Below are positions 27,917 through 60,286 of a stretch of DNA of 64,000 nt, piece after piece (position 1 is the stretch's first letter; each line of letters begins with the position of its first letter). The notes beneath the pieces are model-generated. The model searched no databases and had not been told where the DNA came from. It saw nothing but the letters and a program-made list of their open reading frames with translations. The translations under genes were made by a program, and so were the position numbers. This stretch comes from Nocardioides kongjuensis. GTDB lineage: Bacteria > Actinomycetota > Actinomycetes > Propionibacteriales > Nocardioidaceae. The DNA is taken from positions 1,240,001 to 1,304,000 of the forward strand of contig NZ_JACCBF010000001.1 in the NCBI RefSeq assembly GCF_013409625.1, given 5' to 3'.

Positions 27917-30900
27917 GGGTCCAGCGTCGTCCGGCGCGGTCGGCCCCGGTACGGGCCGATTCCCCGGACGCGGCGGGACCTTCGGCCTGCTGCTCCAGAC
28001 GGACCGTGCGGTCGACGAGGTCGAGGCCCGCGGTGCCATGGGTGATCCACAGCACCGATCGCCCACGCTCCCCGGCGAGCAGCTCGCGGGCCAGCGCCTG
28101 TGCCGTGGGGTGGTCGAGGTGCGCGGTCGGCTCGTCGAGCACCAGGACGGGCTGCTCGGCGAGCAGGGAGCGGGCGACCCCGAGGCGCGCCCGTTCGCCG
28201 CCGGACAGGCCACCGTGGCCTGTCCCGAGCCAGGTGCCCAGGCCGTCCGGCAGGCCGTCGAGCCACTCACCCAGGTGGGCGCGCCGCACGGCGTCCTCGA
28301 CCTCGGCGTCGCTCGCAGCGGGACGGGCGAGGCGGACGTTCTCGGCCACGGTGGTGGCGAACACGTGAGGGGCGTCGTCGACCAGACCGACCTGGCGTCG
28401 TACGTCGTCGGGAGCGAGGTGCTCCAGGTCGGCACCGCCCAGCCTGGCGTCGCCTGTCGCCGCGTCGAGGAAGCGCAGCAGGACGGCCGCGAGGGTGCTC
28501 TTGCCGGACCCGGAGGGGCCGGTCAGGGCGATCCGCTCACCGGGCGCCATGGTGAACGTGACCGGAGGCGTGAGGGGAGCGCGCAGGTCCCAGCGTGCGG
28601 TGACCGCGTCCAGCGCGACCGTGTCCCCGTGCGAGGCGGTGCGGCTGGGGAAGTCGGCGACCGCCGGTCGGGTCGTCTCGAGTGCCCGCAGGCGGTCGTC
28701 GGCCGCGGACGTCCGTGCGGCCAGGACGCCGGCGTCCGCGCAGGGCAGGGCGACGTCGGCGAGGGCCAGCGGGACGAGGACGAGCAGCGCCATGACCGGA
28801 CCGGAGATCCGCCCCTCCGCCAGCGGACCGGCGCTCACCAGCGCCATGGTCGCGACGGCGGCACCGCTGCCCAGCAGGACGAGGCCCCGCGCGGTGGCGA
28901 GCCAGCGGGCCGTGGAGCTCGACACCGTCCCCATCCGGGCGCTGGTGCCGGCCGCGTGCCCGGCCGTCGGGAGCGCTCGCTGCCACATGCGCAGCTCGCT
29001 GCCGACCTGGACCGCCTCGACGACGGTGTCGGACAGGGCTGCGCGGAGCCCGACCAGGCGGCTCTCCGCCGCGCGGGCTCCGCGGCGCGCCAGGAGGAAG
29101 GCGATACTCCCGGCGAGCGGGACGCCGGCCGCGACGAATCCCGCCACGGGCAGGAGGAGCCCCGCCAGCAGGGATGCCAGCAGGCCGACCAGACCGAGCT
29201 GGACCAGGGGCATCCGGACCCGGAGCTGCCGGTCGACGACGCTGTCGACGTCGTCGACGACACTGCTCAGGACGTCGCCCCGGCGGCGGCCGAGGCGACC
29301 GGGCACCAGCGGCACCAGGGCGTCGTAGACCTCCACCCGGCGTCGCGCCAGCAGGCGCAGCGCCGCGTCGTGCGACCAGAGGCGCTCGACGTAGCGCAGC
29401 ACCGGCCGCGCGAGGCCGAAGGCGCGCACGCCGACGACCGCCACGAGCAGCGTGAGCACGGCAGGTCTCGTCGAGGCCTGCACGATCAGCCAGCCCGCGG
29501 TCGCGGTGAGGGCCACGCCGGAGGCCGACGCGAGCGCGCCCAGGACGGTCGCGCCGAGCAGACCGCGGCGTTCCGCACTGCCGGAGCCGGCGGGCTCGGG
29601 CGGTGGCGGAACAGCTGCCGCGCGCACCACCGCCGGGGGGCGAGGGCCCGGTGTCGCGCCGGGCGGTGGCAGGAGCTCGATGCGCTGTTGCGCCAGGTCG
29701 ACCAGTCGCGGTCGGTGCGCCACCACCACGACGCCGCGCGTGCGGGCCAGGGCGACGACGGTGTCGGCGATCACCTGCTCGGTGAGGTCGTCGAGGTGGG
29801 CCGTCGGCTCGTCGAGGAAGACCCACGGGCGGTCGGCGAGCACGACCCGGGCCAGCGCCAGACGGGCTCGCTCGCCGGCCGAGAGGGTCACGCCGTCCTC
29901 GCCGAGCGGGGTGCCGAGCGCTTCGGGAAGGGCGCGGACGCGTTCCTCGAGGGCCACCTCGCGCAGCACCGTCCACAGGTGGTCGTCGGTGGCCGAGGGG
30001 AAGGCGATCCGCAGGTTGTCGGCGATGCTGCCGGCCACGAACTGCGGTTGCTGCGGGAGCCACGCGACCTGGGACTGCCAGGCCGGGCCGCCAACCGGTC
30101 GGCCGCCCGCAGCGACGGTGCCGTCGTCGAGTGGCACCAGACCGGCCACGGCGGCGAGCAACGTGGACTTGCCGCACCCGGACGGGCCGGTGAGCGCCGT
30201 GATGCCGCGGGGCGGGATCAGCGCCGAGACGTCGCGCACGGCGGGCGTCGCGCGGCCGGGCCAGGTGACGGTGAGGTGCTCGAGGACGAGCGGGCAGTCG
30301 GCCGGAGCCGCCCGGTCGAGGGAGCTCTGCGGTGTCGCGGACAGCACGTTGTGCACGGCAGCGAAGGTGGTGGCGCCCTCCGCGGCAGCGTGGAACTCCG
30401 CGCCGACCCGGCGCAGCGGCCAGTACGCCTCCGGTGCCAGGAGCAGTACCACCAGCGCGGTGGGCAGCCCGAGCCCGCCGCCGGCGAGCCGGACACCGAC
30501 GGTCACGGCGACCAGCGCGACCGAGAGGGTCGCGACCAGCTCCAGGACCGCCGAGGACGCGAACGCGATCCGCAGGGTGCGCAGCGAGGCGCGCCGGTAA
30601 CGGTCGGTGACCTCGGCGATCCGCGCGGACTGGGCGCGGGCCCGGCGGTGCGCGACCAGGGTGGGCAGGCCGCGCACCACGTCGAGGAAGTGCCCGGAGA
30701 GCGAGGCCATGGCCCGCCACTGCTCCTCGGCGCGGTCGCGGGTCGCGAGGCCGACGAGTGCACCGAAGACCGGCACGAGCGGCAGGGTGGCGAGCACGAT
30801 GACCGCGCTGAGCAGGTCCTGGGTGGCGATCGCCACGATCGTCAGGGGAGGCAGAACGGTGGCGACGACGAGGGCGGGTACGTATCGCGTCACGTAGGGC

Positions 30901-31265
30901 TCGACAGCGGCGACCCCCCGGGTCGCGAGGACGGCCTCCTCGCCGGTGCCGGCGGTCGGACCGGCCCGGTCGACGTACGTCTGGACCAGGCGGTGGCGCA
31001 GGACCGTCCCGACCACCGAGGCGGCCCGTGCCGCGCACAGGTCGGCCGCCGCGCCGCTCGTCGCCCTCAGCAGGAGCACGCCGACCACGGCGAGCGCCCA
31101 GCCCGATAGGTCCTGTCCGCGCAGCACGGCGACGAGGAGCCCGGTCACGACCCACGCCTGGGCGAGGACCACGAGACCGCCGGCCACCCCGGCGACGACG
31201 ACACCGGCGAGCTCGGCCCGTGCCGGCGCCAGGAGGGCGCGCAGGCGCGGGTCCGACGGCCTCAT
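27906..31265 (-). CDS. cydDC: Fused CydD-CydC ABC transporter for cytochrome bd assembly
   Basis: 1119 residues from ATG 31265, twice the usual half-transporter size. The order is membrane domain, nucleotide-binding domain, membrane domain, nucleotide-binding domain. Walker A motifs are GPSGCGKST and GPSGSGKST; signature motifs are TLSAGERARLALARV and GLSGGERARLGVARS; Walker B regions VFLDEPTAHLD and LVLDEPTAHLD. The two halves correspond to separate CydD and CydC of other bacteria, which export thiols and/or haem-linked reductant needed for bd oxidase maturation. It overlaps cydB by four bases and the next USP gene by eleven. Confidence 0.93.
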   Translation of the reverse strand: MRPSDPRLRALLAPARAELAGVVVAGVAGGLVVLAQAWVVTGLLVAVLRGQDLSGWALAVVGVLLLRATSGAAADLCAARAASVVGTVLRHRLVQTYVDRAGPTAGTGEEAVLATRGVAAVEPYVTRYVPALVVATVLPPLTIVAIATQDLLSAVIVLATLPLVPVFGALVGLATRDRAEEQWRAMASLSGHFLDVVRGLPTLVAHRRARAQSARIAEVTDRYRRASLRTLRIAFASSAVLELVATLSVALVAVTVGVRLAGGGLGLPTALVVLLLAPEAYWPLRRVGAEFHAAAEGATTFAAVHNVLSATPQSSLDRAAPADCPLVLEHLTVTWPGRATPAVRDVSALIPPRGITALTGPSGCGKSTLLAAVAGLVPLDDGTVAAGGRPVGGPAWQSQVAWLPQQPQFVAGSIADNLRIAFPSATDDHLWTVLREVALEERVRALPEALGTPLGEDGVTLSAGERARLALARVVLADRPWVFLDEPTAHLDDLTEQVIADTVVALARTRGVVVVAHRPRLVDLAQQRIELLPPPGATPGPRPPAVVRAAAVPPPPEPAGSGSAERRGLLGATVLGALASASGVALTATAGWLIVQASTRPAVLTLLVAVVGVRAFGLARPVLRYVERLWSHDAALRLLARRRVEVYDALVPLVPGRLGRRRGDVLSSVVDDVDSVVDRQLRVRMPLVQLGLVGLLASLLAGLLLPVAGFVAAGVPLAGSIAFLLARRGARAAESRLVGLRAALSDTVVEAVQVGSELRMWQRALPTAGHAAGTSARMGTVSSSTARWLATARGLVLLGSGAAVATMALVSAGPLAEGRISGPVMALLVLVPLALADVALPCADAGVLAARTSAADDRLRALETTRPAVADFPSRTASHGDTVALDAVTARWDLRAPLTPPVTFTMAPGERIALTGPSGSGKSTLAAVLLRFLDAATGDARLGGADLEHLAPDDVRRQVGLVDDAPHVFATTVAENVRLARPAASDAEVEDAVRRAHLGEWLDGLPDGLGTWLGTGHGGLSGGERARLGVARSLLAEQPVLVLDEPTAHLDHPTAQALARELLAGERGRSVLWITHGTAGLDLVDRTVRLEQQAEGPAASGESARTGADRAGRRWTHDH
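27975..27988. promoter_or_regulatory. DosR-like motif upstream of USP gene (inside cydDC)
   Basis: GGGACCTTCGGCCT, 59 bases upstream of the USP start at 27916. One of about a dozen similar sites in this region. Confidence 0.55.
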
Positions 31266-32281
31266 CGGACGCTCGCGCTCTCGGCCGCCGCGGGGATGTG
31301 GTGGGTGGCGATCCGCTTGCGGAACACCCAGTAGGTCCAGCCCTGGTAGGCGAGGACCAGCGGGGTGAACACGACCGCGGTGACGGTCATGATCTTCAGC
31401 GTGTACGACGTCGCGGCGGCGTTGGTCGTCGTCAGGCTCGCTCCGCCGGCCAGCGTGCTCGGCATGACGTCGGGGAACAGGGCGAGGAACATCCCGGCGA
31501 CCGCCAGCGCGATCGTCACGAAGGTGCCGGCGAACGCCCAGCCCTCACGCCCGACGCGGGCGGCGAGACCCGCGCCGACCAGTGCGAGCGCGGCGAGCAC
31601 GAAGGCGACCGCGGAGCCGGTGGTGCCCGTCTGCTGCTGGGTCCAGGTCAGGAACGCGACGGCCAGCACGGCCGTGACCGCGACCGAGGGGACCGCGAGG
31701 TTGCGCGCCCGGTGCCGGATCTCGCCGTCGGTCTTGAGGGCGACGAACAGGGCGCCATGGGTGACGAACAGGGCCAGCGTGGTCAGGCCGCCGAGGAGCG
31801 CGTAGGGGTTGAGCAGGTCGAAGAACCCGCCGGCGTACTCGAAGTCGCTGTCGATCGGCACGCCGCGCAGGATGTTGGCGAACGCCACGCCCCACAGCAC
31901 CGACGGCACGAGCGAGCCGACGATGATCGCCAGGTCCCAACGGGCCTTCCAGCGGGCGTCGGGTCGCTTGGCGCGGTACTCGAAGGCGAGTCCGCGCACG
32001 ATCAGCGCGATCAGGATGAGCAGCAGCGGGAGGTAGAAGCCGCTGAACAACGTGGCGTACCACTCCGGGAAGGCGGCGAAGGTCGCGCCACCGGCGACCA
32101 GCAGCCAGACCTCGTTGCCGTCCCACACGGGGCCGATGGTGTTGATCATGACGCGTCGCTCGGTGTCGTCGTGCGCCAGGACCGGCAGCAGCAGCCCGAC
32201 GCCGAAGTCGAAGCCCTCGAGGGTGAAGTAGCCGATCCACAGGACGGCGATCAGGACGAACCAGACGGTGGTGAGCTCCAT
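31262..32281 (-). CDS. cydB: Cytochrome bd oxidase subunit II
   Basis: 339 residues from ATG 32281. The opening LTTVWFVLIAVLWIGYFTLEGFDFGVGLLLPVLAHDDTERRVMINTIGPVWDGNEVWLLVAGGATFAAFP is the signature of CydB, with about eight to nine membrane helices in all. CydB pairs with CydA in the high-affinity quinol oxidase used at low oxygen. It lies 22 bases after cydA and overlaps cydDC by four. Confidence 0.95.
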   Translation of the reverse strand: MELTTVWFVLIAVLWIGYFTLEGFDFGVGLLLPVLAHDDTERRVMINTIGPVWDGNEVWLLVAGGATFAAFPEWYATLFSGFYLPLLLILIALIVRGLAFEYRAKRPDARWKARWDLAIIVGSLVPSVLWGVAFANILRGVPIDSDFEYAGGFFDLLNPYALLGGLTTLALFVTHGALFVALKTDGEIRHRARNLAVPSVAVTAVLAVAFLTWTQQQTGTTGSAVAFVLAALALVGAGLAARVGREGWAFAGTFVTIALAVAGMFLALFPDVMPSTLAGGASLTTTNAAATSYTLKIMTVTAVVFTPLVLAYQGWTYWVFRKRIATHHIPAAAESASVR

Positions 32282-32303: not shown

Positions 32304-33737
32304 TCAGTAGGCGAAGGCGAGGGGACGGTCCTCGCCGGTGTCGGTCGGTACGTCGGGCGGCAGCTCCTCGGCGCCCTTGCGGATCCACGTGAGCAGCAGG
32401 CGCACCTCGACGACCGCCAGCACCCCGTACACCGCGGTCAGCGACAGCAGGGAGATCCAGGCCTCGGTCGTCGTGAGCCCGGGGGAGACCGCGCGCTCGG
32501 TCGTCATCAGCCCGAAGACCGCCCAGGGCTGGCGTCCGACCTCGGTGAAGATCCAGCCGAAGGCGTTGGCGAGCAGGGGCAGGAACGGGAGGGCGAGCGT
32601 CGCCGCGAGGACCGATCGGCCCTGCGGGGCCCGGTCGTTGCGGGTCGCCCACAGCGCCCAGGCGGCGACGGCTGCGCCGGCGATGCCCAGACCCATCATC
32701 AGGCGGAACGTCCAGTAGGTGAGCGGGATGACCGGCGTGTAGTCGCCGGGGGAGTAGTACGCGGCGCCGGGGTCGGTGCCGTAGGTCTGCTCGTACTTCG
32801 CGCGCAGGTCGTTGATGCCCTCGACCTCGCCGTTCGGCGTACCTGTGGCCAGGAAGGACAGCAGGCCCGGGATCTTGACGGAGAAGGTCTCGTGCTCGCC
32901 GTCGAGGGTGCCCAGCTGGAAGACGGAGAAGTCGGCCGGCTGCTCGGTCTCGTAGAGGCCCTCGGCCGCGGCCATCTTCATGGGCTGGACCTCGGTCATG
33001 ATCTTGCCCTGCACGTCGCCGCTGACGAAGACGCCGAGCGCGGCCACCAGCACGAGCCAGGCGCCGGTGCGGACCGCGGGGCGGTAGACGTTGCGGTCCT
33101 CGTCGGTCCGGGCGCGGCGCAGGTGCCACAGCGCGACGCCGAGGACGAAGGCGGCGCCGGTCATGTAGGCCGACAGCACGACGTGCGGGAACGTGACGAG
33201 CTGGACCTTGTTGAGGAGGACGGCGGCGAAGTCGTCCATCTCGGCGCGGCCGGTGTCCGGGTTGAACGCGTAGCCGACCGGGTGCTGCATCCAGGAGTTG
33301 GCGGCGAGGATGAAGTACGCCGAGAAGAGGGTGCCGACGTGGACGAGCACGATGCAGGCCGCGTGCAGCCTGGGCGAGAGCCGGTCCCAGCCGAAGATCC
33401 ACAGCCCGAGGAAGGTCGACTCGAGGAAGAACGCGAGCAGCCCCTCGACCGCCAGGGGGGCGCCGAAGACGTCGCCGACGAAGCGGGAGTAGTCGCTCCA
33501 GCTCATCCCGAACTGGAACTCCTGCACGATGCCGGTGACCACGCCGATCGCGAAGTTGATCAGGAACAGCTTGCCGAAGAACTTCGTCAGCCGCAGCCAG
33601 CGCTCGTCCCGGGTCCGCAGCCAGGTGATCTCGTAGCCGGCGATGATCGCCGACAGGCCGATCGTGATGGGGACGAACAGGAAGTGGTAGACGGTCGTGA
33701 TGGCGAACTGCCACCGCGCGATGTCGGTCGGGTCCAC
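32304..33737 (-). CDS. cydA: Cytochrome bd oxidase subunit I
   Basis: 477 residues. GTG 33737 is used: CAGGAGAA precedes it and the protein then begins VDPTDIARWQFAITTVYHFLFVP with the haem-ligand His18 in place. FGMSWSDYSRFVGDVFGAPLAVEGLLAFFLEST, the Q-loop VQPMKMAAAEGLYET and the GRQPW motif (401-405) are intact; the Q-loop is the short type common in actinobacteria. The enzyme reduces oxygen with menaquinol at very low oxygen tension. Two motifs of the local hypoxia regulon lie upstream. Confidence 0.96.
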   Translation of the reverse strand: MDPTDIARWQFAITTVYHFLFVPITIGLSAIIAGYEITWLRTRDERWLRLTKFFGKLFLINFAIGVVTGIVQEFQFGMSWSDYSRFVGDVFGAPLAVEGLLAFFLESTFLGLWIFGWDRLSPRLHAACIVLVHVGTLFSAYFILAANSWMQHPVGYAFNPDTGRAEMDDFAAVLLNKVQLVTFPHVVLSAYMTGAAFVLGVALWHLRRARTDEDRNVYRPAVRTGAWLVLVAALGVFVSGDVQGKIMTEVQPMKMAAAEGLYETEQPADFSVFQLGTLDGEHETFSVKIPGLLSFLATGTPNGEVEGINDLRAKYEQTYGTDPGAAYYSPGDYTPVIPLTYWTFRLMMGLGIAGAAVAAWALWATRNDRAPQGRSVLAATLALPFLPLLANAFGWIFTEVGRQPWAVFGLMTTERAVSPGLTTTEAWISLLSLTAVYGVLAVVEVRLLLTWIRKGAEELPPDVPTDTGEDRPLAFAY

Positions 33738-33820: not shown

Positions 33821-34486
33821 CTACGGCCGGATTGCCCGCACGGAGGGGACCTTTGGCCTCCCGGACTCCGCGGCCACGTCGGTGAGGGCGGCAGCGCCGC
33901 GCCGGGTGAGCACGCCCAGGACCGCGCCGGCGGCGGTACCGGTGACGGTGCCCAGCGCGACGACGAGCGGCGTGGGCCAGTCGGCGGCCGGCAGGCCGGC
34001 GCCGAGGAAGATGACCGGCATCGCCACGGTCCAGCCGACCGTGCTGCTCGCGACCCAGCGCCAGGGCCGGGCCGCCTGCCGCCGCACCGCCGCGGCTTGT
34101 GCGGTCCCCAGCAGTGCTCCTGTCGTGGCGCCGAGCGCAGCTCCACCGGCCACGACGAGCAGCAGGGGCGGCGGCGTGCCACCGCCGGGGCCAGCGAGCG
34201 TCGCGGGAGCGGATCCAGCGGCCCACGCCAGCCCGGCGACCAGGACGGTCGCGGTCGTCCACCGACGGGCCGCTGCGTCGCCGAGGCGCCGACGGAGCAC
34301 GACCGACTGCAGGACGCCGAGGGACGTGCCCTCGACGAGACCTCCGGCGACCACGACCGCCAGCCCCCAGCCGGGCGCGACGTCACGGACGTCGGTGAGC
34401 CAGGTCGCGAGGCGGGCGGCCCCGGCAGCAGCGGTGATGCCGACCGCCTCGGCGAGCGTGCAGGCGCCCAGCCAGGTGGGCCTCAT
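33821..34486 (-). CDS. Multi-pass membrane protein of unknown function
   Basis: 221 residues from ATG 34486, overlapping the stop of the nitroreductase gene by four bases. About six hydrophobic segments, rich in Gly and Ala (WGLAVVVAGGLVEG, LLLVVAGGAALGATTGALLGTAQAAAV, VALGTVTGTAAGAVLGVL). Repeated glycine-zipper-like patterns suggest tightly packed helices. Not recognised. Translational coupling to the Acg-like gene places it in the same hypoxia unit. Confidence 0.7.
   Translation of the reverse strand: MRPTWLGACTLAEAVGITAAAGAARLATWLTDVRDVAPGWGLAVVVAGGLVEGTSLGVLQSVVLRRRLGDAAARRWTTATVLVAGLAWAAGSAPATLAGPGGGTPPPLLLVVAGGAALGATTGALLGTAQAAAVRRQAARPWRWVASSTVGWTVAMPVIFLGAGLPAADWPTPLVVALGTVTGTAAGAVLGVLTRRGAAALTDVAAESGRPKVPSVRAIRP
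33845..33862. promoter_or_regulatory. DosR-like motif upstream of cydA
   Basis: GGGGACCTTTGGCCTCCC, inside the 3' end of the upstream gene and about 109 bases before the cydA start. A more degenerate GGCCCTACGGCC lies closer, at about 33818-33829. Confidence 0.5.
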
Positions 34487-35531: not shown

Positions 35532-35545
35532 GGGCACAAGGTCCT
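35532..35545. promoter_or_regulatory. DosR-like motif between acg and the response regulator gene
   Basis: GGGCACAAGGTCCT (reverse AGGACCTTGTGCCC), 63 bases before the acg start and 60 before the regulator start, so it could serve both and allow autoregulation. Confidence 0.5.
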
Positions 35546-35604
35546 CAAGTCGCGGGAGCGCAGTCCTGCCCCAGCAGCCTCCGAACGGGACTACCGTGGG
35601 TCAG

Positions 35605-36250
35605 GTGAACGACGACGCTGCCCGGGAGGGCGCCCAGCAGATCCGGGTCTACCTGCTCGACGACCACGAGATGATCCGGCGCGGGATCCGTGACCTGCTC
35701 GAGAGCGAGGGCGACATCGTCGTCGTCGGCGAGTCCGACTCCGCCGCGGAGGCGGCGCGCCGGATCCCCGCCCTGCGCCCCGACGTCGCGATCCTCGACG
35801 GCCGGCTGCCCGACGGGTCCGGCATCGACGTGTGCCGCGACGTGCGCTCCCAGGACCCCTCGATCAAGGCGCTCATCCTGACGTCGTACGACGACGACGA
35901 CGCGCTCTTCTCCGCGATCATGGCCGGCGCGGCCGGCTACGTGCTCAAGCAGGTCCGCGGCAACGACCTGCTCGACATCGTCCGGCGCGTGGCCGCCGGC
36001 CAGTCCACCCTCGACCCGTCGGTGACCGCGCAGGTCCTCGACCGGATCCGGTCGGGTCCGCCGGTCAACAAGGAGCTGGAGTCGCTGACGGACCAGGAGG
36101 GACGCATCCTCGACCTGATCGGTCAGGGCATGACCAACCGCCAGATCGCGCGGGAGCTCCACCTCGCCGAGAAGACGGTGAAGAACTACGTGTCCTCGCT
36201 GCTCGCGAAGCTCGGGATGTCCAGCCGCACGCAGGCCGCGATCTTCGCGG

Positions 36251-36276
<26 letters not shown>
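35605..36276 (+). CDS. dosR: DosR/DevR-like response regulator
   Basis: 223 residues from GTG 35605; GTG 35596 in frame is an alternative. The receiver domain has acidic Asp19-Asp20, phosphoacceptor Asp65 in AILDGRLPDG and Lys115 in YVLKQV. The LuxR-type domain LTDQEGRILDLIGQGMTNRQ-IAREL leads to LAEKTVKNYVSSLLAKLGM-SSRTQAA, nearly the same as DosR, including the DNA-contact residues Lys190, Lys193 and Asn194. DosR activates dormancy genes under hypoxia, NO or CO. The sensor kinase is 0.5 kb downstream, and matching boxes lie in front of many genes in this window. Confidence 0.92.
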
Positions 36277-39268
<2,992 letters not shown>

Positions 39269-40908: not shown

Positions 40909-40923
40909 GGGACCTAGGACCCC
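40909..40923. promoter_or_regulatory. DosR-like motif in the divergent YfcC-arcA promoter
   Basis: GGGACCTAGGACCCC, with near-symmetric halves around CCTAGG. It lies 58 bases before arcA and 87 before the antiporter gene and may control both. Confidence 0.6.
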
Positions 40924-40980: not shown

Positions 40981-42204
40981 ATGAACCTGCACGTCGACTC
41001 CGAGGTGGGCGCGCTGCGCCAGGCGATCCTGCACCGGCCCGGGCTCGAGCTGATGCGCCTGACGCCGACCAACAAGGACGCCTACCTGTTCGACGACGTG
41101 CTGTGGGTCAAGCGCGCCAAGCAGGAGCACGACGCGTTCGCGGAGGTGCTGCGCGACCAGGGTGTCGTCGTGCACCTGCTCGACCGGCTGCTCGCCGAGA
41201 CGATGGAGATCCCGGAGGCGCGGCGACACGTCCTCGACCTCACCTTCGACGAGAGGGTCTACGGGCCGCTCGCGGCCGACGCGCTGCACAACCTCGGCAG
41301 CGCGCTCGGCGCGGAGGAGCTCGCGACGCTGCTCATCGGGGGACTCACCAAGCGAGAGCTGCTCGAGCACATCGAGGAGCCGCGGTCGGTCGTGGTCCAG
41401 ACCATGGCGCCCGACGACTTCGTCGTCGCGCCGCTCCCCAACCACCTGTTCACCCGCGACACCTCGGCATGGGTCTACGACGGGGTCTCGGTCAACGCCA
41501 TGCGCAAGCGGGCCCGGACCCGCGAGACGGTCCACTACGAGGCGATCTACCGCTGGCACCCGGCCTTCGCCAGGGCCGGCTTCCGGTGGTGGGCCGACGG
41601 CACGGCCGGGGCTCCGGCGACGACCGAGGGCGGTGACATGCTGGTCCTGGGTCGCGGCTCGGTCCTGGTCGGCATGAGTGAGCGGACCACGCCCCAGGGC
41701 GTCGAGCGGATGGCGCGGCGGATCTTCGACGCCGGCAGCGCGCGGCGGATCGTGGCGCTCGCGATGCCGCAGAAGCGTGCCTTCATGCATCTCGACACGG
41801 TGATGACGATGGTCGACGAGGAGACGTTCACCCAGTACGCCGGGCTCGGCGCGCTGCCGGCGTACACGATCGAGCCGGGCGACACCGACAAGGAGCTCGC
41901 GGTGACGGCCCACGCTCCCGAGGAGATGCACTCCGCGATCGCCGCGGCCCTCGGGCTGAGCCGGATCCGGGTGCTCACCCCGACCCAGGACGTGCGCTCG
42001 GCCGAGCGGGAGCAGTGGGACGACGGGTGCAACGTGCTCGCGGTCCGCCCCGGCGTGGTCGTCGCCTACGAGCGCAACGTCACCACGAACACGCACCTGC
42101 GCAAGAGCGGCATCGAGGTGATCACGATCGAGGGCAGCGAGCTGGGTCGCGGCCGGGGCGGTCCGCGGTGCATGACCTGCCCGATCGAGCGTGACGGGAT
42201 CTGA
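40981..42204 (+). CDS. arcA: Arginine deiminase
   Basis: 407 residues from ATG 40981, with AGAGAGGAAG upstream. Family motifs are [51 protein letters not shown] and the C-terminal [16 protein letters not shown] with catalytic Cys397. It hydrolyses arginine to citrulline and ammonia, the first step of anaerobic ATP production by the deiminase pathway. Four base pairs separate its stop from the arcB start; the operon continues with arcC. Confidence 0.96.
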
Positions 42205-42208: not shown

Positions 42209-43210
42209 ATGGGATCTCCGCTGCGCAACCGGTCCTTCCTCAAGGAGCTGGACCTGACCCCGGACGAGTGGCACTACCTCCTCGACCTCTCGGCGACCCT
42301 GAAGGCGGCCAAACGGGCCGGGACCGAGCAGCCGCGCCTGACCGGCAAGAACATCGCGCTGATCTTCGAGAAGACCTCGACCCGGACCCGGTGCGCCTTC
42401 GAGGTCGCCGCTCGCGACCAGGGCGCCGGCGTGACCTACCTCGACCCGTCGGGCTCGCAGATCGGCCACAAGGAGTCGATGGCTGACACCGCCCGCGTCC
42501 TCGGGCGGATGTACGACGGCATCGAGTACCGCGGCTCGCGGCAGGCCGACGTCGAGGTGCTCGCCGAGCGGTCCGGCGTCCCCGTCTGGAACGGTCTGAC
42601 CGACGAGTGGCACCCGACCCAGACGCTGTGCGACATGCTGACGATGCGCGAGCACGCCGGGAAGCCGGACCACGAGATCGCCTTCGCCTACCTCGGCGAC
42701 GCCCGGAACAACGTGGGGAACTCGCTGCTCGTCGCGGGCGCGATGATGGGCATGGACGTCCGCGTCGTGGCGCCGCGCGCACTGTGGCCCTCGGACGACG
42801 TCGTGGCCCGGGCACGCAGCCTCGCGGAGCAGACGGGCGCGCGGCTGAACCTGACCGAGGACGTCGCGCAGGGCGTTGCCGGTGTCGACTTCCTCTACAC
42901 CGACGTGTGGCTCTCGATGGGTGAGCCGAAGGAGCGCTGGCCCGAGCGGATCGCGCTGCTGCGCGACTACCGGGTCGACGCCGAGGTCGTGAAGGCCACC
43001 GGCAACAGCACGGTCCGGTTCATGCACTGCCTGCCCGCGTTCCACGACCGGCACACGACGGTCGGCGAGGAGATCTTCCAGCAGACCGGGCTGAGCGCGC
43101 TCGAGGTCACCGACGAGGTCTTCGAGTCGCAGCACTCCATCGTGTTCGACCAGGCGGAGAACCGGATGCACACCATCAAGGCCGTCCTCGTCGCGACGCT
43201 GGGGGACTGA
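42209..43210 (+). CDS. arcB: Ornithine carbamoyltransferase (catabolic)
   Basis: 333 residues; ATG 42209 is preferred over GTG 42191, which lies inside arcA. The carbamoyl-phosphate motif STRTR is at 57-61, [15 protein letters not shown] follows, and HCLP at 273-276 binds ornithine. In this operon it runs in the catabolic direction, splitting citrulline into ornithine and carbamoyl phosphate. An anabolic ArgF cannot be excluded by sequence, but the neighbours make arcB far more likely. Confidence 0.94.
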
Positions 43211-44162: not shown

Positions 44163-46795
44163 GTGGCTCGGTCCACACCGTGTCGCTCGGTGGTGGCCTC
44201 GTGGCAGGGCTCGACGAGGAGCAGGTCGAGGAGAGCCGTCGTGTGCACGGCGCGAACGTCGTACCTCCTGCTCGACGCAAGCCCACGTGGCGGCTGCTCG
44301 CCGACCAGATGACCCACCTGCTCGCGGTCCTGCTCTGGGTCGCGGCCGGGCTCGCCGTGATCGCGGGAATGCCGGAGCTGGGCGTGGCGATCTCACTGAT
44401 CGTCGTGCTGAACGCGCTGTTCGCCTTCTGGCAGGAGTTCCACGCCGACCGGTCGACCGAGCGCCTGCGCGCGCTGCTCCCGACGCGGGCGCTGGTCGTG
44501 CGGTCAGGTCACCAGGTGGCACTCGACGTCGGCCAGCTCGTGGTCGACGACATCGTGCTGGTCGAGGCCGGCGACCGGGTCGGGGCCGACCTCCAGGTGG
44601 TCTCGGCCGAAGGGCTGGCACTCGACGAGTCGCTGCTGACGGGGGAGAGCGCCGCGGTCCCGCACGAGGCCGGGGACACGCTCATGTCGGGCACCTTCGT
44701 CACGCAGGGGCGGGCCCGGACCCGGGTGGTGGCGGTCGGTCCCGAGACCACGCTCGCGGGGATCTCCCGGCTCTCGGAGACGGCCCATCGTCCGCCGAGC
44801 CCGCTCACCGTGCAGCTGCGCAAGGTCGTGCGGGTGGTGGCGGTCGTGGCGTTCACCGTGGGCATCGGGCTCGGCCTCGGCTCCCTCGCCCTCGGACTGG
44901 ACGCCACCCAGGCGTTCCTGTTCGGCGTCGGAGTCTCGGTCGCGCTCGTTCCGGAGGGGCTGCTGCCGACCGTCACCCTGTCGCTGGCGCGCGGCGCCCA
45001 GCGGATGGCCGGCGAGCGGGCGCTGGTGCGGCGCCTCGACGCGGTGGAGACACTGGGTGCCACCACCTTCATCTGCACCGACAAGACCGGCACCATCACC
45101 CAGAACCGGATGAACGTCGTCACGGTGGTCACGCCGTCCGGGCGCCACGACGTCGCAGGCATCGGCTATGCACCGACCGCAGCAGTGACCGGGACCGGCG
45201 ACCCGAGCGAGCTGCGGCAGGCCGCCCTCTCGGCCCTGCGGTGCGTGACGGGCCGGGTCCGGGAGAAGGACGGTGCCTGGTCCCCGCTCGGCGACCCGAT
45301 GGAGGCGGCGTTGCACGCCCTGGCCCTCCGGGTCGGCTCCCCGGTGGAGGACGTGGTCGTCCGACGCCCCTACACAGCCGAGCGGATGGTGAGCTCGGCG
45401 TGGTACGACGGACAGGTCTCCGTCCTCGGGGCGCCGGAAGCAGTGCTGACGCGCTGCCGGGACGTTCCGCCGGGCATCCGTGCGGCCCTCGTCGAGCTCA
45501 CCGACGTCGGCCTGCGCGTCCTCGCCGTCGCCGGTCGCACCAGTGCCGAGGACGCCGGGGAGGCCGACGAGCACGACCTGACGTTCCACGGGCTGCTCGG
45601 CCTCCAGGACCCGCCGCGTCCCGACGTCGCCCAGGCTCTCGGGCAGTGCCGTCGCGCGGGGATCCGGGTCGCCATGCTCACCGGCGACCACCCGCGCACG
45701 GCGCAGGCGATCGCGCGCCAGGTCGGCCTGCTGCACGACGGCGGGGTGGTCGTCGAGGGCAAGGACCTGCCTGCGGACGACCGCGAGCTCGCCGTCCTGC
45801 TCGACACGGACCGGGGTGCGGTGGTCGCCCGCGTGGCGCCCGCCGACAAGCTCAGGATCGCCCGCGCGCTGCGGGGCCACGGGCACGTGGTCGCGATGAC
45901 CGGCGACGGTGTCAACGACGCCCCGGCACTGCGCACCGCGGACGTCGGCGTCGCGATGGGAGCCAGCGGCAGTGACGTGGCACGCGAGGCGTCCGACCTG
46001 GTGCTCCTCGACGACCACTTCGCGACCATCGTCAGCGCCGTGGAGCTCGGCCGCGCGACGACGCAGAACGTGCGCCGCTTCCTCACCTTCCACCTGACCG
46101 ACAACGTCGCCGAGCTGGCGCCGTTCGCCGCCTGGGCCCTGAGCGGCGGCAGCTTCCCCCTCGCCATCGGCGTGCTCCAGGTCTTGGCGCTCGACATCGG
46201 CACGGACATGCTGCCGGCCCTCGCACTGGGGGCCGAGCCGGGGCGGGCCGACGTGATGCGCGGACGTCGTCGCCGCACGCTGATCGACCGCGCCCTGGCG
46301 GTCCGGGCGTTCCTGGTGCTCGGGCTGACGGAGGCGGTCCTCGCACTGACCGCCTTCAGCGTCGTGCTGCTGGCGCACGGCTGGCGGTGGGGGCAGACCC
46401 CGCCGGGACCGACCCTGGCGCTCGCCTCGGGCACCGCCTTCGCGGTGATCGCCGGCACCCAGGTGGCCAACGCCTTCGCCTGCCGAAGCACCCGCCTGCC
46501 CGTGTGGCGCCTCGACCTGCTCGGCAACCGGCTGGTCCTGCTGGCCGTCGGCGCCGAGCTGCTGCTGCTCATGGTCTTCCTCGGTGTCCCACCGGTCGCG
46601 GACCTGCTCGGCGGCAGCTTCCCGGACCCCGGCGGCTGGCTCCTGGTCGTCGCGTCGGCCGGGGCCCTGGTCCTGGTCGACGGCGTGGCCAAGACGCTGC
46701 GTGGGACCAAGGTCCCCGCGGGCACGGGCGCGGCGGCCCTGCCAGGGCCCGGGGCCGGCAGCGAGGCTCGGAGCGACCCCGAGGAGGAACCATGA
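44159..46795 (+). CDS. P-type cation ATPase (CtpF-like, P2 type)
   Basis: 878 residues from GTG 44159, overlapping arcC. Motifs: TGES, the TM4 sequence VALVPEGLLPTVTLSLA (PEGL as in Ca2+/Na+ pumps), phosphorylation site Asp308 in CTDKTGTITQN, and GDGVNDAPALRTADVGVAMG. The N-terminal cation ATPase domain is present. CtpF (Rv1997) of the mycobacterial DosR regulon is a calcium exporter of this type. It is translationally coupled to arcC upstream and to a USP gene downstream. Ion specificity is an inference. Confidence 0.9.
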   Translation: MSGSVHTVSLGGGLVAGLDEEQVEESRRVHGANVVPPARRKPTWRLLADQMTHLLAVLLWVAAGLAVIAGMPELGVAISLIVVLNALFAFWQEFHADRSTERLRALLPTRALVVRSGHQVALDVGQLVVDDIVLVEAGDRVGADLQVVSAEGLALDESLLTGESAAVPHEAGDTLMSGTFVTQGRARTRVVAVGPETTLAGISRLSETAHRPPSPLTVQLRKVVRVVAVVAFTVGIGLGLGSLALGLDATQAFLFGVGVSVALVPEGLLPTVTLSLARGAQRMAGERALVRRLDAVETLGATTFICTDKTGTITQNRMNVVTVVTPSGRHDVAGIGYAPTAAVTGTGDPSELRQAALSALRCVTGRVREKDGAWSPLGDPMEAALHALALRVGSPVEDVVVRRPYTAERMVSSAWYDGQVSVLGAPEAVLTRCRDVPPGIRAALVELTDVGLRVLAVAGRTSAEDAGEADEHDLTFHGLLGLQDPPRPDVAQALGQCRRAGIRVAMLTGDHPRTAQAIARQVGLLHDGGVVVEGKDLPADDRELAVLLDTDRGAVVARVAPADKLRIARALRGHGHVVAMTGDGVNDAPALRTADVGVAMGASGSDVAREASDLVLLDDHFATIVSAVELGRATTQNVRRFLTFHLTDNVAELAPFAAWALSGGSFPLAIGVLQVLALDIGTDMLPALALGAEPGRADVMRGRRRRTLIDRALAVRAFLVLGLTEAVLALTAFSVVLLAHGWRWGQTPPGPTLALASGTAFAVIAGTQVANAFACRSTRLPVWRLDLLGNRLVLLAVGAELLLLMVFLGVPPVADLLGGSFPDPGGWLLVVASAGALVLVDGVAKTLRGTKVPAGTGAAALPGPGAGSEARSDPEEEP
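46703..46716. promoter_or_regulatory. Perfect DosR-like palindrome upstream of USP gene (inside ATPase gene)
   Basis: GGGACCAAGGTCCC has perfect inverted GGGACC halves around AA. It lies within the P-type ATPase gene, 76 bases before the USP start at 46792. It is the best example of the motif in the window. Confidence 0.65.
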
Positions 46796-47721
46796 CCACC
46801 ACCCCGCCACGCCCGGTCGTCGTCGGGCACGACGGCACCTACGCCAGCAGCGGTGCGCTCCGCTACGCGCTCGCCGAGGCACGCCGCAGCGACGTGCCCC
46901 TGCGGATCGTTCATGCCATGCCGCTGCAGACCTCGGCGTTCCTGGACCTCCCGGTCCTCGCGGAGGAGCTGGACGCCGAGCGCCAACAGGTCGAGGCCAC
47001 GGTACGGTCCGAGGTCGCACGGCTGGCCGACGACGTCGAGGTGCAGGTCGTCACCTGCCATGGTGCGCCGGCCTCCGTGCTGCTGGGTGCGGCCGAGGAC
47101 GCCCGCCTCCTCGTGATCGGCCGGGAGCACCGCACCGGACTGCGCCGACTCCTCGGCGGAGCCACCACGGAGGACGTCGCGGCGCACGCCGGTGCGCCGC
47201 TGGTGGTCGTACCCGAGGGCTGGCGTGACGACCAGGTGCCTCGGCAGCGGGTGGTGGTCGCCCTGAAGGCGCCCGCACACAGCACCGAGCTGCTCGGCGC
47301 GGCATTCCGGCGGGCCGAGCAGTCCGGCGCGGCGCTGCGTGTCGTGCACGCGTGGGAGCCCGATGACCGGGTCGTGGGCCACCGCCCGGACGGGTGGACA
47401 CCCCAGGTCCTGCTGGTCGAACGAGCCGTGGCAGCGATCGACGACCTGCTCGGTCCCTGGCGGCGAGCGTTCCCCGGCGTCGTCGTCCACGTCGAGGTCC
47501 ACGTCGCCGACCCGCGCACCGACCTCCTCGAGGAATCGGCCGCGGCTGACCTCGTGGTGCTGCTGCGCGGCGAGGCACCGGTGCTCGGTCCCCACCTCGG
47601 CGGCGTGCTGCGTCCCGTGCTGCACGCCGCGGACTGCCCGGTCCTGCTGGTGCCCGCCACGAAGGCGGAGCTCCCGCCCCTGGACCTCGAGCTGGAGCAC
47701 GCGGGCACCCTGCTGCGATGA
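46792..47721 (+). CDS. Universal stress protein, two UspA domains
   Basis: 309 residues from ATG 46792; GAGGAGGAACC precedes it and the start overlaps the ATPase stop. Domain 1 runs VVVGHDGTYASSGALRYALAEARRS to GAPLVVVPE and has the partly degenerate nucleotide motif GREHRTGLRRLLGGA; domain 2 starts at RVVVALKAPAHSTELLGAAFRRA. It is encoded directly after a P-type ATPase, and a second USP/ATPase pair lies at 60372-63808. It may regulate the pump or respond to the same signal. Confidence 0.92.
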   Translation: MTTTPPRPVVVGHDGTYASSGALRYALAEARRSDVPLRIVHAMPLQTSAFLDLPVLAEELDAERQQVEATVRSEVARLADDVEVQVVTCHGAPASVLLGAAEDARLLVIGREHRTGLRRLLGGATTEDVAAHAGAPLVVVPEGWRDDQVPRQRVVVALKAPAHSTELLGAAFRRAEQSGAALRVVHAWEPDDRVVGHRPDGWTPQVLLVERAVAAIDDLLGPWRRAFPGVVVHVEVHVADPRTDLLEESAAADLVVLLRGEAPVLGPHLGGVLRPVLHAADCPVLLVPATKAELPPLDLELEHAGTLLR

Positions 47722-49693: not shown

Positions 49694-49707
49694 AGGCACT
49701 TGGTCCC
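49694..49707. promoter_or_regulatory. DosR-like motif between DUF1003 and SHOCT genes
   Basis: Reverse strand reads GGGACCAAGTGCC. It is about 61 bases upstream of the DUF1003 start and 92 upstream of the SHOCT gene. Confidence 0.45.
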
Positions 49708-50055: not shown

Positions 50056-50070
50056 GGGGACCTTCGGCCC
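50056..50070. promoter_or_regulatory. DosR-like motif upstream of ppdK
   Basis: GGGGACCTTCGGCCC, 36 bases before the ppdK start and just after the stop of the SHOCT gene. Confidence 0.6.
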
Positions 50071-50106: not shown

Positions 50107-52824
50107 GTGACCAGCTACGTCCACTCCTTCGACGCCCCCGGCACTCCCGACCGCGACCTGCTCGGCGGCAAGGGCGCCGAGCTGGCCCGCATGGTGCAGC
50201 TCGGCCTGCCGGTGCCACCGGGCTTCACGATCACGACCGCTGCCTGCCGCCAAGTGCTCGAGCACGGCCGCCGGCCGGCCGGGATGGCGGGTGACGTCGA
50301 GCACCAGCTCGCGCTCCTCGAGGACCGCACCGGACTCGTCCTCGGCGACCCGGAACGGCCGCTCCTCCTCGCGGTGCGATCCGGCGCGGCGAGCTCGATG
50401 CCCGGCATGATGGACACCATCCTCGACATCGGCCTCAACGACGAGACCGTTCTCGCCGTCGCCCGGATCTCGGGGGACGAGCGGTTCGCCTGGGACTGCT
50501 ACCGGCGGCTCGTGCAGATGTTCGGGGAGACCGTCCTCGGCGTTGCCGCCGCACGGTTCGCCGCGCTCACCGCGACCGTGGTCGCCGAGCGAGGTGTCGA
50601 CGGCCTCCCGGCGCTGGACGCCGACGGACTCCGCGACCTCGTCGAGCGCGGCAGGGCCCTGTGCCAGGAGGTCGCGGGCCGTGACCTTCCCCAGGACCCG
50701 CGCGAGCAGCTCGATCTCGCCATCGACGCCGTGTTCGCGTCCTGGCAGGGCGAACGTGCCCGCGTCTACCGCCGCAGGTTCGGCATCCCCGACCATCTCG
50801 GGACCGCCGTCAACGTCCAGGCCATGGTCTTCGGCAACCGAGGCGCGACGTCCGGGAGCGGGGTCGCCTTCACCCGTGATCCCGCCACCGGCGCGCTCGG
50901 CGACTACGGGGAGTACCTCGCCGACGCCCAGGGCGAGGACGTCGTCTCCGGGGCCCGGACCGCCGTGCCGCTGGCGCGACTGAGGGAGATCGACCTGCCG
51001 TCGTACCGGCGGCTCCGCTCGATCCTGAGCACCCTGGAGCACCACTACCGCGACCTGTGCGACATCGAGTTCACCATCGAGGACGGCCGGCTCTGGATCC
51101 TGCAGACCAGGGTCGGCAAGCGCAGCCCCGCCGCGGCCTTCCGGATCGCGGCCGACCTGGTCGAGGAGGGGATGATCACCGACGACGAGGCCCTGGTGCG
51201 CGTGAGCGGTGACCAGCTCACGCAGCTGATGTTCCCGCAGCTCGACGCAGGCTCGGCCGGGCGGCCGGCCGCGGTGGGGCTCGCCGCCTCGCCGGGCGCC
51301 GCGGTCGGCAGGGTCGTGCTCGACAGTGCCACCGCGGTGACCCTCGCCGCGCGTGGCGAGGACGTCGTGCTGGTCCGCCCCGAGACCCGGGCCGACGACC
51401 TGCCGGGCATGGTCGCTGCGCGCGCGGTGGTCACCGCCCGGGGCGGCCGCACCTCGCACGCGGCCGTCGTCGCACGCGGCATGGGCCTGCCCGCCGTGTG
51501 CGGTGTGGAGGGACTCGAGATCGACCTGGCCAGCCGCCGGGTGAGCCTGGCCGGACATCGCCTGTTCGCCGAGGGAGACGTGGTCTCGGTGGACGGCGGG
51601 ACCGGGCGCGTCTACCACGGTCATCACCGCACCGTGCCCTCGGAGGTGACCCGTTGGCTCGACGGGGAGGCCATCGACTCCCCACTGGTGTCTGCCGTCG
51701 AGAGACTGCTGGCCCACGCCGACCGGACCCGTCGTGTCGGTGTCCGCGCGAACGCCGAGTCCGGGCACGACATCGCTCGGGCCCTGCGGTACGGCGCCGA
51801 GGGTGTCGGCCTGGTCCGCACCGAGCACATGTTCCTCGGCGACCGCCGGACCTACGTCGAGCGCGTCCTGATCGGCACCGACGCCGAGCGGGAGGCGGCG
51901 CTGCGCGAGCTGACCGCCCTCCAGCGCGAGAGCTTCGCCGTCCTGCTCGCCGCAGCGGACGGCCGTCCCGTGACGATCCGTCTGCTGGACGCCCCGGCAC
52001 ACGAGTTCCTGCCGGACCTCACGGACCTGGCGGTACGGGTGGCGACCGCTGCCGCCCGGGGCTGCCCGGACGAGGCGCTCCAGGCCAGGCTGGCCGCCGT
52101 ACGACGCCACCACGAGGCGAACCCGATGACCGGGTTGCGCGGCGTGCGGCTCGCGATCGTGCGGCCCGAGCTGGTCGTCGCCCAGGCACTGGCGGCCTTC
52201 GAGGCAGCGGCCGACGCACGCGACCGCGGACGCGCCTTCGACCTCGAGCTGATGGTTCCGATGGTGAGCTCGGTGGAGGAGCTCACCGCGGTCGCCCGGT
52301 CCGTCGCCCGGGCCGCGGACGACGTCGCGACCCGCCGCGGCCGGGTGACCTACCGGCTCGGAGCCATGGTCGAGACGCCCCGCGCCGCGGTGACGGCCGC
52401 CCGGATCGCCGAGGTGGCCGGCTTCGTGTCGTTGGGCACCAACGACCTGACCCAGCTGACCTGGGGGCTGTCGCGCGACGACGCCGAGCGCTCGTTCCTG
52501 CCCCGCTACCTCGACGAGGGACTGCTGCGGGTCTCGCCGTTCGCGACCCTCGACCAGGAGGGAGTCGGCGAGCTGGCCGCTCGTGCGGTCGTCGGTGCCC
52601 GGCGGACCCGCCCGGGCATCCCGGTCGGCGTGTGCGGGGAGCACGCGGGAGATCCCGCCTCGATCGGCTTCCTCGCCGGGATCGGCGTCACCTACCTGTC
52701 CTGCTCGCCGTTCCGGGTCCCGGTCGCTCGCCTGGAGGCCGGCCGGGCAGCGGTCCTGGCGCAGGGGTGCCCACCGGACCGCTTCGACGAGCTCGACGTA
52801 CCGCTCCTGGCGACGGTGGGGTGA
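50107..52824 (+). CDS. ppdK: Pyruvate, phosphate dikinase
   Basis: 905 residues from GTG 50107; ribosome binding site weak. The N-terminal nucleotide domain has LLGGKGAELARMVQLGLPVPPGFTITT and AVRSGAASSMPGMMDTILDIGLND; swivelling-domain catalytic His451 lies in GGRTSHAAVVARGMGLPAVCG; the C-terminal barrel has the acid Cys843 in VGVCGEHAGDP. The enzyme interconverts pyruvate + ATP + Pi and PEP + AMP + PPi; running towards pyruvate it gains ATP from PPi, useful when respiration stops. It is the first gene of an operon with CBS, PPOX and acyl-CoA synthetase genes, all with overlapping or adjacent ends. Confidence 0.94.
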   Translation: MTSYVHSFDAPGTPDRDLLGGKGAELARMVQLGLPVPPGFTITTAACRQVLEHGRRPAGMAGDVEHQLALLEDRTGLVLGDPERPLLLAVRSGAASSMPGMMDTILDIGLNDETVLAVARISGDERFAWDCYRRLVQMFGETVLGVAAARFAALTATVVAERGVDGLPALDADGLRDLVERGRALCQEVAGRDLPQDPREQLDLAIDAVFASWQGERARVYRRRFGIPDHLGTAVNVQAMVFGNRGATSGSGVAFTRDPATGALGDYGEYLADAQGEDVVSGARTAVPLARLREIDLPSYRRLRSILSTLEHHYRDLCDIEFTIEDGRLWILQTRVGKRSPAAAFRIAADLVEEGMITDDEALVRVSGDQLTQLMFPQLDAGSAGRPAAVGLAASPGAAVGRVVLDSATAVTLAARGEDVVLVRPETRADDLPGMVAARAVVTARGGRTSHAAVVARGMGLPAVCGVEGLEIDLASRRVSLAGHRLFAEGDVVSVDGGTGRVYHGHHRTVPSEVTRWLDGEAIDSPLVSAVERLLAHADRTRRVGVRANAESGHDIARALRYGAEGVGLVRTEHMFLGDRRTYVERVLIGTDAEREAALRELTALQRESFAVLLAAADGRPVTIRLLDAPAHEFLPDLTDLAVRVATAAARGCPDEALQARLAAVRRHHEANPMTGLRGVRLAIVRPELVVAQALAAFEAAADARDRGRAFDLELMVPMVSSVEELTAVARSVARAADDVATRRGRVTYRLGAMVETPRAAVTAARIAEVAGFVSLGTNDLTQLTWGLSRDDAERSFLPRYLDEGLLRVSPFATLDQEGVGELAARAVVGARRTRPGIPVGVCGEHAGDPASIGFLAGIGVTYLSCSPFRVPVARLEAGRAAVLAQGCPPDRFDELDVPLLATVG

Positions 52825-56460: not shown

Positions 56461-56481
56461 CGGCACCACGGCCCCCTGCCC

Positions 56482-56496
56482 GGGGACCAAGGACCC
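56482..56496. promoter_or_regulatory. DosR-like motif upstream of DUF2157-like gene
   Basis: GGGGACCAAGGACCC, 73 bases before the start at 56570 and just after the stop of the preceding gene. Confidence 0.55.
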
Positions 56497-59094: not shown

Positions 59095-59145
59095 GAGGGA
59101 ACACCGGCGAACAGCCCTTGGCCCCCGCAGCTGCTCACGCTGAGT

Positions 59146-59388
59146 TCAGGACGCGATCACGAGATGGGGCGCTGGACGTCGTGTCGCGCTCTCGGCGAGC
59201 CGGTGCCGGACGAGCTCCTCGCACAGAGCCATCCGCTGCCCGTCGTCCCGGTGGTACGCCTGCAGCAGCTGCTCGGCACGTAGGACCGCGGCCAGCACCT
59301 GGCCGGCCGGGACCGCACCCGCGTACTCGAGGATCAAGCGGTCAGCGAGGTGTTGGCGGGCCTCGCGGCGCGCTCGCGGGTCCGACAT
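59146..59388 (-). CDS. Small helical protein of unknown function
   Basis: 80 residues; ATG 59388 is chosen because the ribosome binding site AAGGAGG is ideal. The sequence (DPRARREARQHLADRLILEYAGAVPAGQVLAAVLRAEQLLQAYHRDD-GQRMALCEELVRHRLAES) is mostly helical and resembles the three-helix DUF3562-like or hypoxia-associated small proteins, but no name fits firmly. A DosR-like motif lies 56 bases upstream. Confidence 0.75.
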   Translation of the reverse strand: MSDPRARREARQHLADRLILEYAGAVPAGQVLAAVLRAEQLLQAYHRDDGQRMALCEELVRHRLAESATRRPAPHLVIAS

Positions 59389-59443
59389 GGGCAGCCTCCT
59401 TGCACTCAGCGACCACCTTGCATCCCCGCTCGCAAGCGGAGCA

Positions 59444-59457
59444 GGGTCCAAGGTCCC
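59444..59457. promoter_or_regulatory. DosR-like motif upstream of small helical protein
   Basis: GGGTCCAAGGTCCC (reverse GGGACCTTGGACCC), 56 bases upstream of the start at 59388. One base short of a perfect palindrome. Confidence 0.6.
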
Positions 59458-59564
59458 GAGATCGGCGGGTACCCGGCGGGGTGCGTGTCATGCCCCGCGC
59501 TGGTTCTCGGGGCAGATGTGGCTGGACTCGGCCGCTGATCACGGGCAGCCGGTGGGCACCACGG

Positions 59565-60158: not shown

Positions 60159-60253
60159 CGGCCTCCATCTCCTCCGCATCGGTGTCGTGCTCCTCGAGTC
60201 GATCCCACTCCTGCGAGCCCCTGAGCGACAGGGGCAAGGGATCGGGACCGGGA

Positions 60254-60286
60254 GGGACCAAGGTCATGACGGGACCAAATGCCTCC
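60254..60286. promoter_or_regulatory. Two tandem DosR-like motifs between Rv1733c-like and USP genes
   Basis: GGGACCAAGGTC at 60254-60265 and GGGACCAAATGCCTCC at 60271-60286, spaced 17 bases start to start. They lie 86-118 bases from the USP start and 96-128 from the Rv1733c-like start. Paired boxes are also usual in mycobacterial DosR promoters. Confidence 0.55.

Follow-up and report, generated by a model that had tools for sequence, protein, structure and literature searches.

The dormancy-regulator system has been studied mainly in mycobacteria and Streptomyces. For mycobacterial DosR, the core of the operator is in print as GGGACTWWAGTCCC (PMC2275270), the Mycobacterium tuberculosis regulator uses a strong site together with an adjacent weak site, the start-proximal one lying over the -35 region (PMC3029386), and Lys179, Lys182 and Asn183 are its base-contacting residues (PMC4082495). 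The Streptomyces coelicolor study of OsdR contains predicted sites with a GGGACC half, e.g., AGGGACCTTCGGCCCC before narG2 (PMC5069765). Here we describe twelve related sites within a stretch of 64,000 nucleotides of Nocardioides kongjuensis DNA (the window; C1:1240001-1304000 of a 5.67-Mb genome, window G+C 73%), which also encodes a response regulator of the DosR/DevR/OsdR type and a sensor kinase of the DevS/DosT type. With a probability of about 0.88, we read the sites as predicted operators of a DosR/OsdR-type low-oxygen regulon in Nocardioides, which includes the operons of cytochrome bd oxidase and arginine deiminase.

The locus shares features with both described systems. With DosR/DevR of M. 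tuberculosis it has in common the register of the palindrome, the adjacent strong and weak sites, the base-contacting residues and a kinase of the haem GAF type (PMC2275270, PMC3029386, PMC4082495), and with OsdK-OsdR of S. coelicolor the genes that carry predicted boxes and lie near a DosR-type regulator, namely those for stress proteins, PNPOx, nitroreductase and pyruvate dikinase (PMC5069765). The differences concern spelling and targets. Base 6 of each half is most commonly C in Nocardioides and T in the DosR box, and in the S. coelicolor OsdR consensus AGGGCCGATCGGCCCT, unlike the window, bases 4 and 6 of the 14-mer are C and G (PMC5069765). Table 1 of the OsdR study lists nitrate reductase targets and names neither cydA nor arginine deiminase, whereas the window cluster adds the bd oxidase and arginine deiminase operons; their placement under the box is likewise a difference from the M. 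tuberculosis regulon, a comparison that extends to this regulon only and not to mycobacteria at large. The sequence-only reading had derived the motif from the DosR core by a change of T to C in each half. The core it named is confirmed in print; the change itself is not new in kind, since the predicted S. coelicolor sites with a GGGACC half, AGGGACCTTCGGCCCC among them, already show this spelling. Nocardioides is unmentioned in the papers listed by a search on the topic, although most subscription papers were outside reach and absence from print does not follow. Within the papers compared, new features are Nocardioides as the genus, C as the dominant base 6, the targets arginine deiminase and bd oxidase, and the spacing rule described below. 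Among the papers listed by a further search, one on the Rhodococcus equi genome (PMC2947987) reportedly mentions arginine deiminase once, together with DosR and DevR.

All twelve site sequences of the sequence-only reading are present at their coordinates, at most one base off. Its wording of the motif as GGGACC, a spacer and GGNCC fits five of them on either strand and fails for the other seven. The exact pattern GGGACCN{1,4}GGNCC has nine matches in the window against 4.4 expected, a number reached by six of 100 shuffles, and these matches fall on the five sites and on three unrelated places. Being weak evidence, the loose pattern was replaced by stronger tests. Up to a few mismatches, all twelve sites fit the 14-bp palindrome GGGNCC-WW-GGNCCC, i.e., two six-base halves around a two-base A/T centre, in the register of the mycobacterial core; the site at 46703 is a perfect palindrome, as had been noted. 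A weight matrix was built from 75 upstream sites of relatives, with the window and its nearest relative (L001) excluded. This matrix places eleven of the twelve sites at ranks 1-6 and 8-12 of the whole window, the lone intruder among the top twelve matches being located within a gene at 8077. Upstream position was assessed by a half-site scan without a preset motif, which takes in only half-sites with at least four matches. With as many as three mismatches allowed, none of the 748 testable half-sites in the window shows a stronger upstream enrichment than GGGACC. Gene starts follow closely on 12 of its 19 matches, where 15% would be expected (p=2.3e-6; corrected, about 0.002). If no more than two mismatches are allowed, GGGCCC comes first (6/7 upstream) and GGGACC second (6/8). 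The observation of the sequence-only reading is confirmed. Its impression that the first 24 kb hold few comparable sites agrees with the scan (five matches at up to three mismatches, one of them at most 150 bp upstream of a start), and the gene-start distances it had put at about 24-110 bp amount to 30-116 bp from site centre to nearest start (94 bp for 60271).

The spelling of the box was examined on 64 sites that had been selected for their similarity to GGGACC. Their half-sites carry C at base 6 in 70%, G in 23%, A in 5% and T in 2%; the GGGAC half and the register are those of the DosR box. A Streptomyces-derived OsdR matrix recovers few of the noted sites in the window, two of twelve in its top 10 and eight in its top 60, because the Streptomyces consensus differs at bases 4 and 6. 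The best match of this matrix (32608-32623, AGGACCGATCGGCCCT) is located inside cydA, away from any start.

Beyond the window, the whole genome holds 117 sites at up to two mismatches against 79 in the reversed control. Eight of the 117 lie at 1267-1310 kb around the window cluster, where an even spread would place about 0.9. The cluster extends past the window end, with boxes at 1307028 and 1307058 (stress-protein gene) and at 1309063 (a DoxX-like gene, labelled by our own reading of the sequence and without a Pfam match). Comparison with relatives was based on 80 regulator loci, 64 of which were covered by half-site scans (30 from Nocardioidaceae and related Propionibacteriales, 23 from Micromonosporaceae, 11 from Streptomycetaceae), the other 16 being left out. 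In the first group, with the window excluded, GGGACC again comes first, 58 of 66 matches being upstream (log10 p of -37 versus -18.5 for the next word); in Micromonosporaceae, GGGCCC is first and GGGACC second. On the level of the genus, 98 genomes contain 148 perfect palindromes, against 4 in the reversed control. The surroundings were examined for 70 of these 148 sites: 61 of them are at most 250 bp from a gene start, and eight lie inside a called gene; one belongs to the window's own genome, and L115 and L148 represent the same gene pair in one genome. Recurrent neighbours are DoxX-like genes (6, by our own reading), stress proteins (5), cydA (4) and aldehyde dehydrogenase (3 by our own reading, plus the window's genome by Pfam). 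The first set of 31 loci overlaps the genus genomes in at least one promoter (L207 of the cydA set is the L004 site).

The proposed reader of the box is encoded at 35596..36276 on the plus strand (Response_reg and GerE; PF00072, PF00196). Its best solved structure is DevR (3c3w, E=1.4e-66), aligned over the full length to 3c3w residues 2-206, and its nearest named relative comes from Nocardioides daeguensis (92% identity). By our own reading of the alignment, from which the numbering was mapped, the EKTVKNY segment with Lys179, Lys182 and Asn183 is identical. The complete helix LAEKTVKNYVS recurs exactly in 73 of 81 aligned regulators, i.e., the 80 loci, including Micromonosporaceae and Streptomycetaceae, and a paralogue from the window genome. 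An unchanged reading helix does not explain the shift in preference at bases 4 and 6; drift along with base composition or indirect readout are our guesses. This suggests that operator spelling can shift while the reading helix stays, which matters for regulon prediction by homology.

The adjoining kinase gene (36784..38382, plus strand; haem-type GAF, HisKA_3 and HATPase_c by Pfam) encodes a GAF domain that is closest to 2vzw (E=2.8e-50), which we take to be DosT, and also matches haem-domain entries of DevS, e.g., 2w3d (E=1.4e-45). GAF-A keeps the proximal His (149/147, HPPM) and the distal Tyr (171/169, LYLTEK), positions again mapped by our own reading of the alignment. By these features, the kinase is a putative haem sensor of the DosS/DosT type. 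The sequence-only reading had named the regulator near 35605 as the protein to bind this DosR-box variant. Homology to DevR, the kept base-contacting residues, the adjoining DevS-type kinase and the co-occurrence of motif and regulator support it as the predicted reader.

Microlunatus phosphovorus, of the same order as Nocardioides, encodes a further relative. Its PolS-PolR is a DevS-DevR-like pair linked to oxygen, and PolR is reported to bind the direct repeat GTTCACnnnnnGTTCaC, which is quite unlike the Nocardioides palindrome (PMC6754071). The constant reading helix within the family calls such a very different site into question. The PolR repeat looks like a Streptomyces PHO box.

Across the genus, box and regulator tend to occur together. 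A DosR homologue (E<=1e-60) is encoded in 88 of the 98 genomes; a perfect site occurs in 67 of these 88 and in two of the 10 without (Fisher p=8e-4, which, like all p-values across the genus, is a guide only, because genomes of one genus share ancestry and are not independent). Counted as sites, there are 146 in the former and 2 in the latter. Promoters of individual genes were scored by a matrix whose 64 training sites take in the window and related loci; scores for cydA and arcA are therefore not wholly independent, and a glgX-like gene and arcA paralogues served as controls. A cydA match was found in 78 genomes, of which 70 were examined, 30 in a first and 40 in a second set. In the first set, a box of at least 6 bits precedes 30 of the 30 closest cydA orthologues, while none of 30 copies of the glgX-like gene from the first half of the window (11787-13958) has one, own genome included in both cases. 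In the second set, 21 of the 29 genomes that encode a close DosR homologue have a box of at least 9 bits, compared to none of six with only a distant homologue and none of five with no homologue. For arcA, 13 of 20 orthologues have a box of at least 6 bits (own genome included), compared to one of ten more distant paralogues. The regulator gene itself is preceded by a box in 12 of 30 related loci as well as in the window (35532). Sites, conservation, spacing and co-occurrence with the regulator are read from the DNA itself, and conservation across the genus suggests that the box may work as it does for the dormancy regulators of M. tuberculosis and Streptomyces.

Upstream of cydA in two of the five DosR-less genomes (L251, L254), the string AGTACSTACTACAC is located at about -32 to -35, and a third (L253) carries GTAGTACTA near -50. 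Similar strings also occur in some box-less genomes with DosR (L265, L268, L271). A replacement operator at cydA is a possible interpretation.

In a genome of 73% G+C, short G+C-rich palindromes are common, and the exact loose patterns are near chance both in the window and genome-wide. Chance palindromes that happen to lie upstream would account for this. We consider such a coincidence extremely improbable and rejected it on the leave-window-out ranking, the upstream position in other loci (58/66), the genus counts (148 versus 4), the comparison of cydA with glgX (30/30 versus 0/30) and the preferred spacing to -10-like elements described below.

Several points weigh against the operator reading or against its assignment to this regulator. 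The exact pattern GGGNCCWWGGNCC is not enriched genome-wide, with 28 matches compared to 35 in the reversed control; as the loose pattern is at chance on this scale, the signal consists of clustering, position and conservation. Three other families of the order show no enrichment of the perfect word (15 versus 17 in the control, 95 genomes); in the same draw, 33 genomes of the genus gave 62 versus 2 and 19 genomes of other genera in the family 6 versus 3. The 11 Streptomycetaceae loci, for which it was not tested whether they are true osdR loci, reveal no upstream signal with an A/T centre. One perfect site each occurs in two DosR-less genomes, a genome counting as DosR-less if none of the 30 candidates scored in it matched, and 21 of the 88 DosR-bearing genomes have none. 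In the second set, 8 of the 29 genomes that encode a close DosR homologue lack the cydA box, 7 of 20 arcA orthologues are without a box, and both groups count against a rigid rule. In 18 of the 30 related loci, no strong box precedes the regulator gene. To these comes, besides the shared ancestry of the genomes, that gene starts rest on our own simple codon-usage gene caller.

The genome also encodes 18 other regulators of the family at E<=1e-20. One of them, at C1:3106477, is 53% identical and has the nearly unchanged recognition helix LAEKTVKNHVT. The boxes could thus be real operators whose main reader is another NarL-family regulator such as this paralogue, or they could be shared by both, an assumption that would also accommodate the two perfect sites in genomes without a DosR homologue. 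We regard it as unlikely: the boxes cluster around the regulator at 35596 and its kinase, the cydA box is missing in all six genomes with only a distant homologue and kept in 21 of 29 with a closer one, and in 12 of 30 loci a box lies in the promoter of the regulator gene itself.

The promoters reveal a preferred geometry. A weak partner, defined by at least six of eight core bases, accompanies 16 of 64 sites at +22 bp and 15 at -22 bp, against a mean of 2.4 per offset; strong site and weak partner tend to be two helical turns apart. In the cydA promoters, a largely separate set whose members are homologous to each other, 22 of 30 have a partner at +22. Counted from the box start, -10-like elements (NAnnnT) accumulate at +37 (25 of 125), +59 (21) and +60 (22), the mean being 3.3. 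In the window, 12 of 18 site-gene pairs have such an element at one of these three offsets, and with +38 also allowed, only one of the 12 sites is left without any. The usual -10 element of Mycobacterium smegmatis is ANNNT at -13 to -6 (PMC6448022). If Nocardioides is alike, box centres would come to lie near -42 and -64, and in part of the sites the spacing pattern is what the strong/weak-site mechanism of M. tuberculosis would predict. Slot usage differs between genes: the -10-like element is in the distal slot in 26 of 30 cydA promoters, and in the proximal slot in eight of 13 arcA promoters, with one distal and four in neither. Start distances at cydA toggle by about 22 bp, as if the strong box jumped between two slots; this was rejected, given the distal element in 26 of 30, and only leader length seems to vary.

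Because the sites are perfect or near-perfect inverted repeats, and three of them (27975, 33846 and 46703) sit within the called 3' end of the preceding gene, they might be taken for RNA hairpins, i.e., terminators or attenuators, in place of protein-binding sites. This explanation appears very improbable and was rejected as well, on the sequences alone. Unless pairs open, a centre of two bases leaves too little room for a loop; at 50057 (GGGACCTTCGGCCC) and similar sites base 4 is unpaired; several sites have divergent genes on their two sides; and the preferred spacing runs to -10-like elements.

Extending the operator reading, a two-slot grammar can be formulated, for which we see even odds. 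Strong and weak box would lie at about -42 and -64, with a distance of 22 bp between them. Which of the two slots the strong box takes would depend on the gene (distal for cydA, proximal for arcA), and an unchanged DosR helix would tolerate a different base 6. Lineages that lost the regulator would have lost the cydA operator, which was probably replaced by another.

From this arrangement we infer box binding, activation and an oxygen signal in the following way. The haem GAF kinase (36784-38382) would sense the loss of oxygen, or NO/CO, and phosphorylate the regulator (35596-36276), dimers of which would bind the strong box and then, cooperatively, the weak one at a distance of 22 bp. The box that covers the -35 region, at about -42, would recruit RNA polymerase, and the bd oxidase, arginine fermentation, universal stress proteins and the regulator itself would be induced. 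A system known mainly from mycobacteria and Streptomyces would thereby be extended to a large soil genus. The operator set is conserved and statistically strong, and through it oxygen sensing would be linked to the bd oxidase and to the fermentation of arginine.

The individual sites are located as follows, with genes named via Pfam and ranks as given by the matrix of relatives. The box at 27975..27988 (GGGACCTTCGGCCT, rank 8, E 0.10 per 64 kb) lies within the 3' end of the upstream gene, before a universal stress protein gene (26993..27916, minus strand; PF00582), and has the -10-like element GACGCT at +60. The box at 33846..33859 (rank 9; TAGCGT at +60, second box at +22) precedes cydA, which encodes cytochrome bd oxidase subunit I (32304..33737, minus; PF01654, E=3.1e-169). 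On the same strand, cydA is followed by cydB for subunit II (31262..32281; PF02322, E=5.7e-114) and by a fused ABC transporter gene that is cydDC-like by position (27906..31265; PF00005 twice, PF00664). Two sites lie between divergent genes next to the regulatory pair: 35532..35545 (rank 10) between a nitroreductase-like gene (minus) and the regulator gene (plus), and 36747..36760 (rank 12, E 0.65) between a PNPOx-like gene (minus) and the kinase gene (plus).

The box at 40909..40922 (rank 2; CAGGAT at +37) separates a DcuC-family carrier gene (minus) from arcA, the arginine deiminase gene (40981..42204, plus; PF02274, E=2.5e-116). Downstream on the plus strand are genes for an arcB-type ornithine carbamoyltransferase (42209..43210; PF00185, PF02729) and, assigned by fold family and position, an arcC-type carbamate kinase (43212..44162; PF00696). 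The perfect palindrome at 46703..46716 (GGGACCAAGGTCCC, rank 1) precedes a second universal stress protein gene (46792..47721, plus; PF00582). Between a DUF1003 gene (minus) and a SHOCT gene (plus), the box at 49694..49707 (rank 11) has TAGCGT at +60 on the minus side. The box at 50057..50070 (rank 6), located before a gene of the pyruvate phosphate dikinase/PEP synthase type (50107..52824, plus; PF01326, PF00391, PF02896), shares its core with the predicted S. coelicolor narG2 OsdR site AGGGACCTTCGGCCCC (PMC5069765). Further boxes precede a DUF2157 membrane protein gene (56570-57655; box 56483..56496, rank 4, TAGCGT at +37) and a small gene (59146-59388, minus; box 59444..59457, rank 3). A third universal stress protein gene (60372..61262, plus; PF00582) is preceded by the box at 60254..60267 (rank 5), without a -10-like element at the expected offsets. 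The site at 60271..60284, 17 bp from the 60254 site, is weak (rank 19, 3.5 chance matches expected per 64 kb) and doubtful as a box.

Transcription starts predicted from the -10-like elements fall at most three bases from the called start codon for the genes starting at 27916, 35496, 49635, 50107 and 59386, suggesting that these five genes may give rise to leaderless messages. A tRNA-Pro gene (24373-24448) is located just before the block of hypoxia genes, which starts at about 24.6 kb. Elsewhere in the genus, perfect boxes (L092, L103, L107, L118, L136, L110, L111) precede sigma-70-family genes (flagellar-sigma-like), a flagellar rod gene and genes for a PAS protein, PPK2, NarK/NarG-like proteins and hemerythrin. 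In the window's genome (L082), a perfect box at C1:787269 lies between a PAS-GGDEF-EAL gene and a family-2 glycosyltransferase gene, and apparently the same gene pair has a perfect box in L102 and L132, which may point to a connection with cyclic di-GMP and surface polysaccharide.

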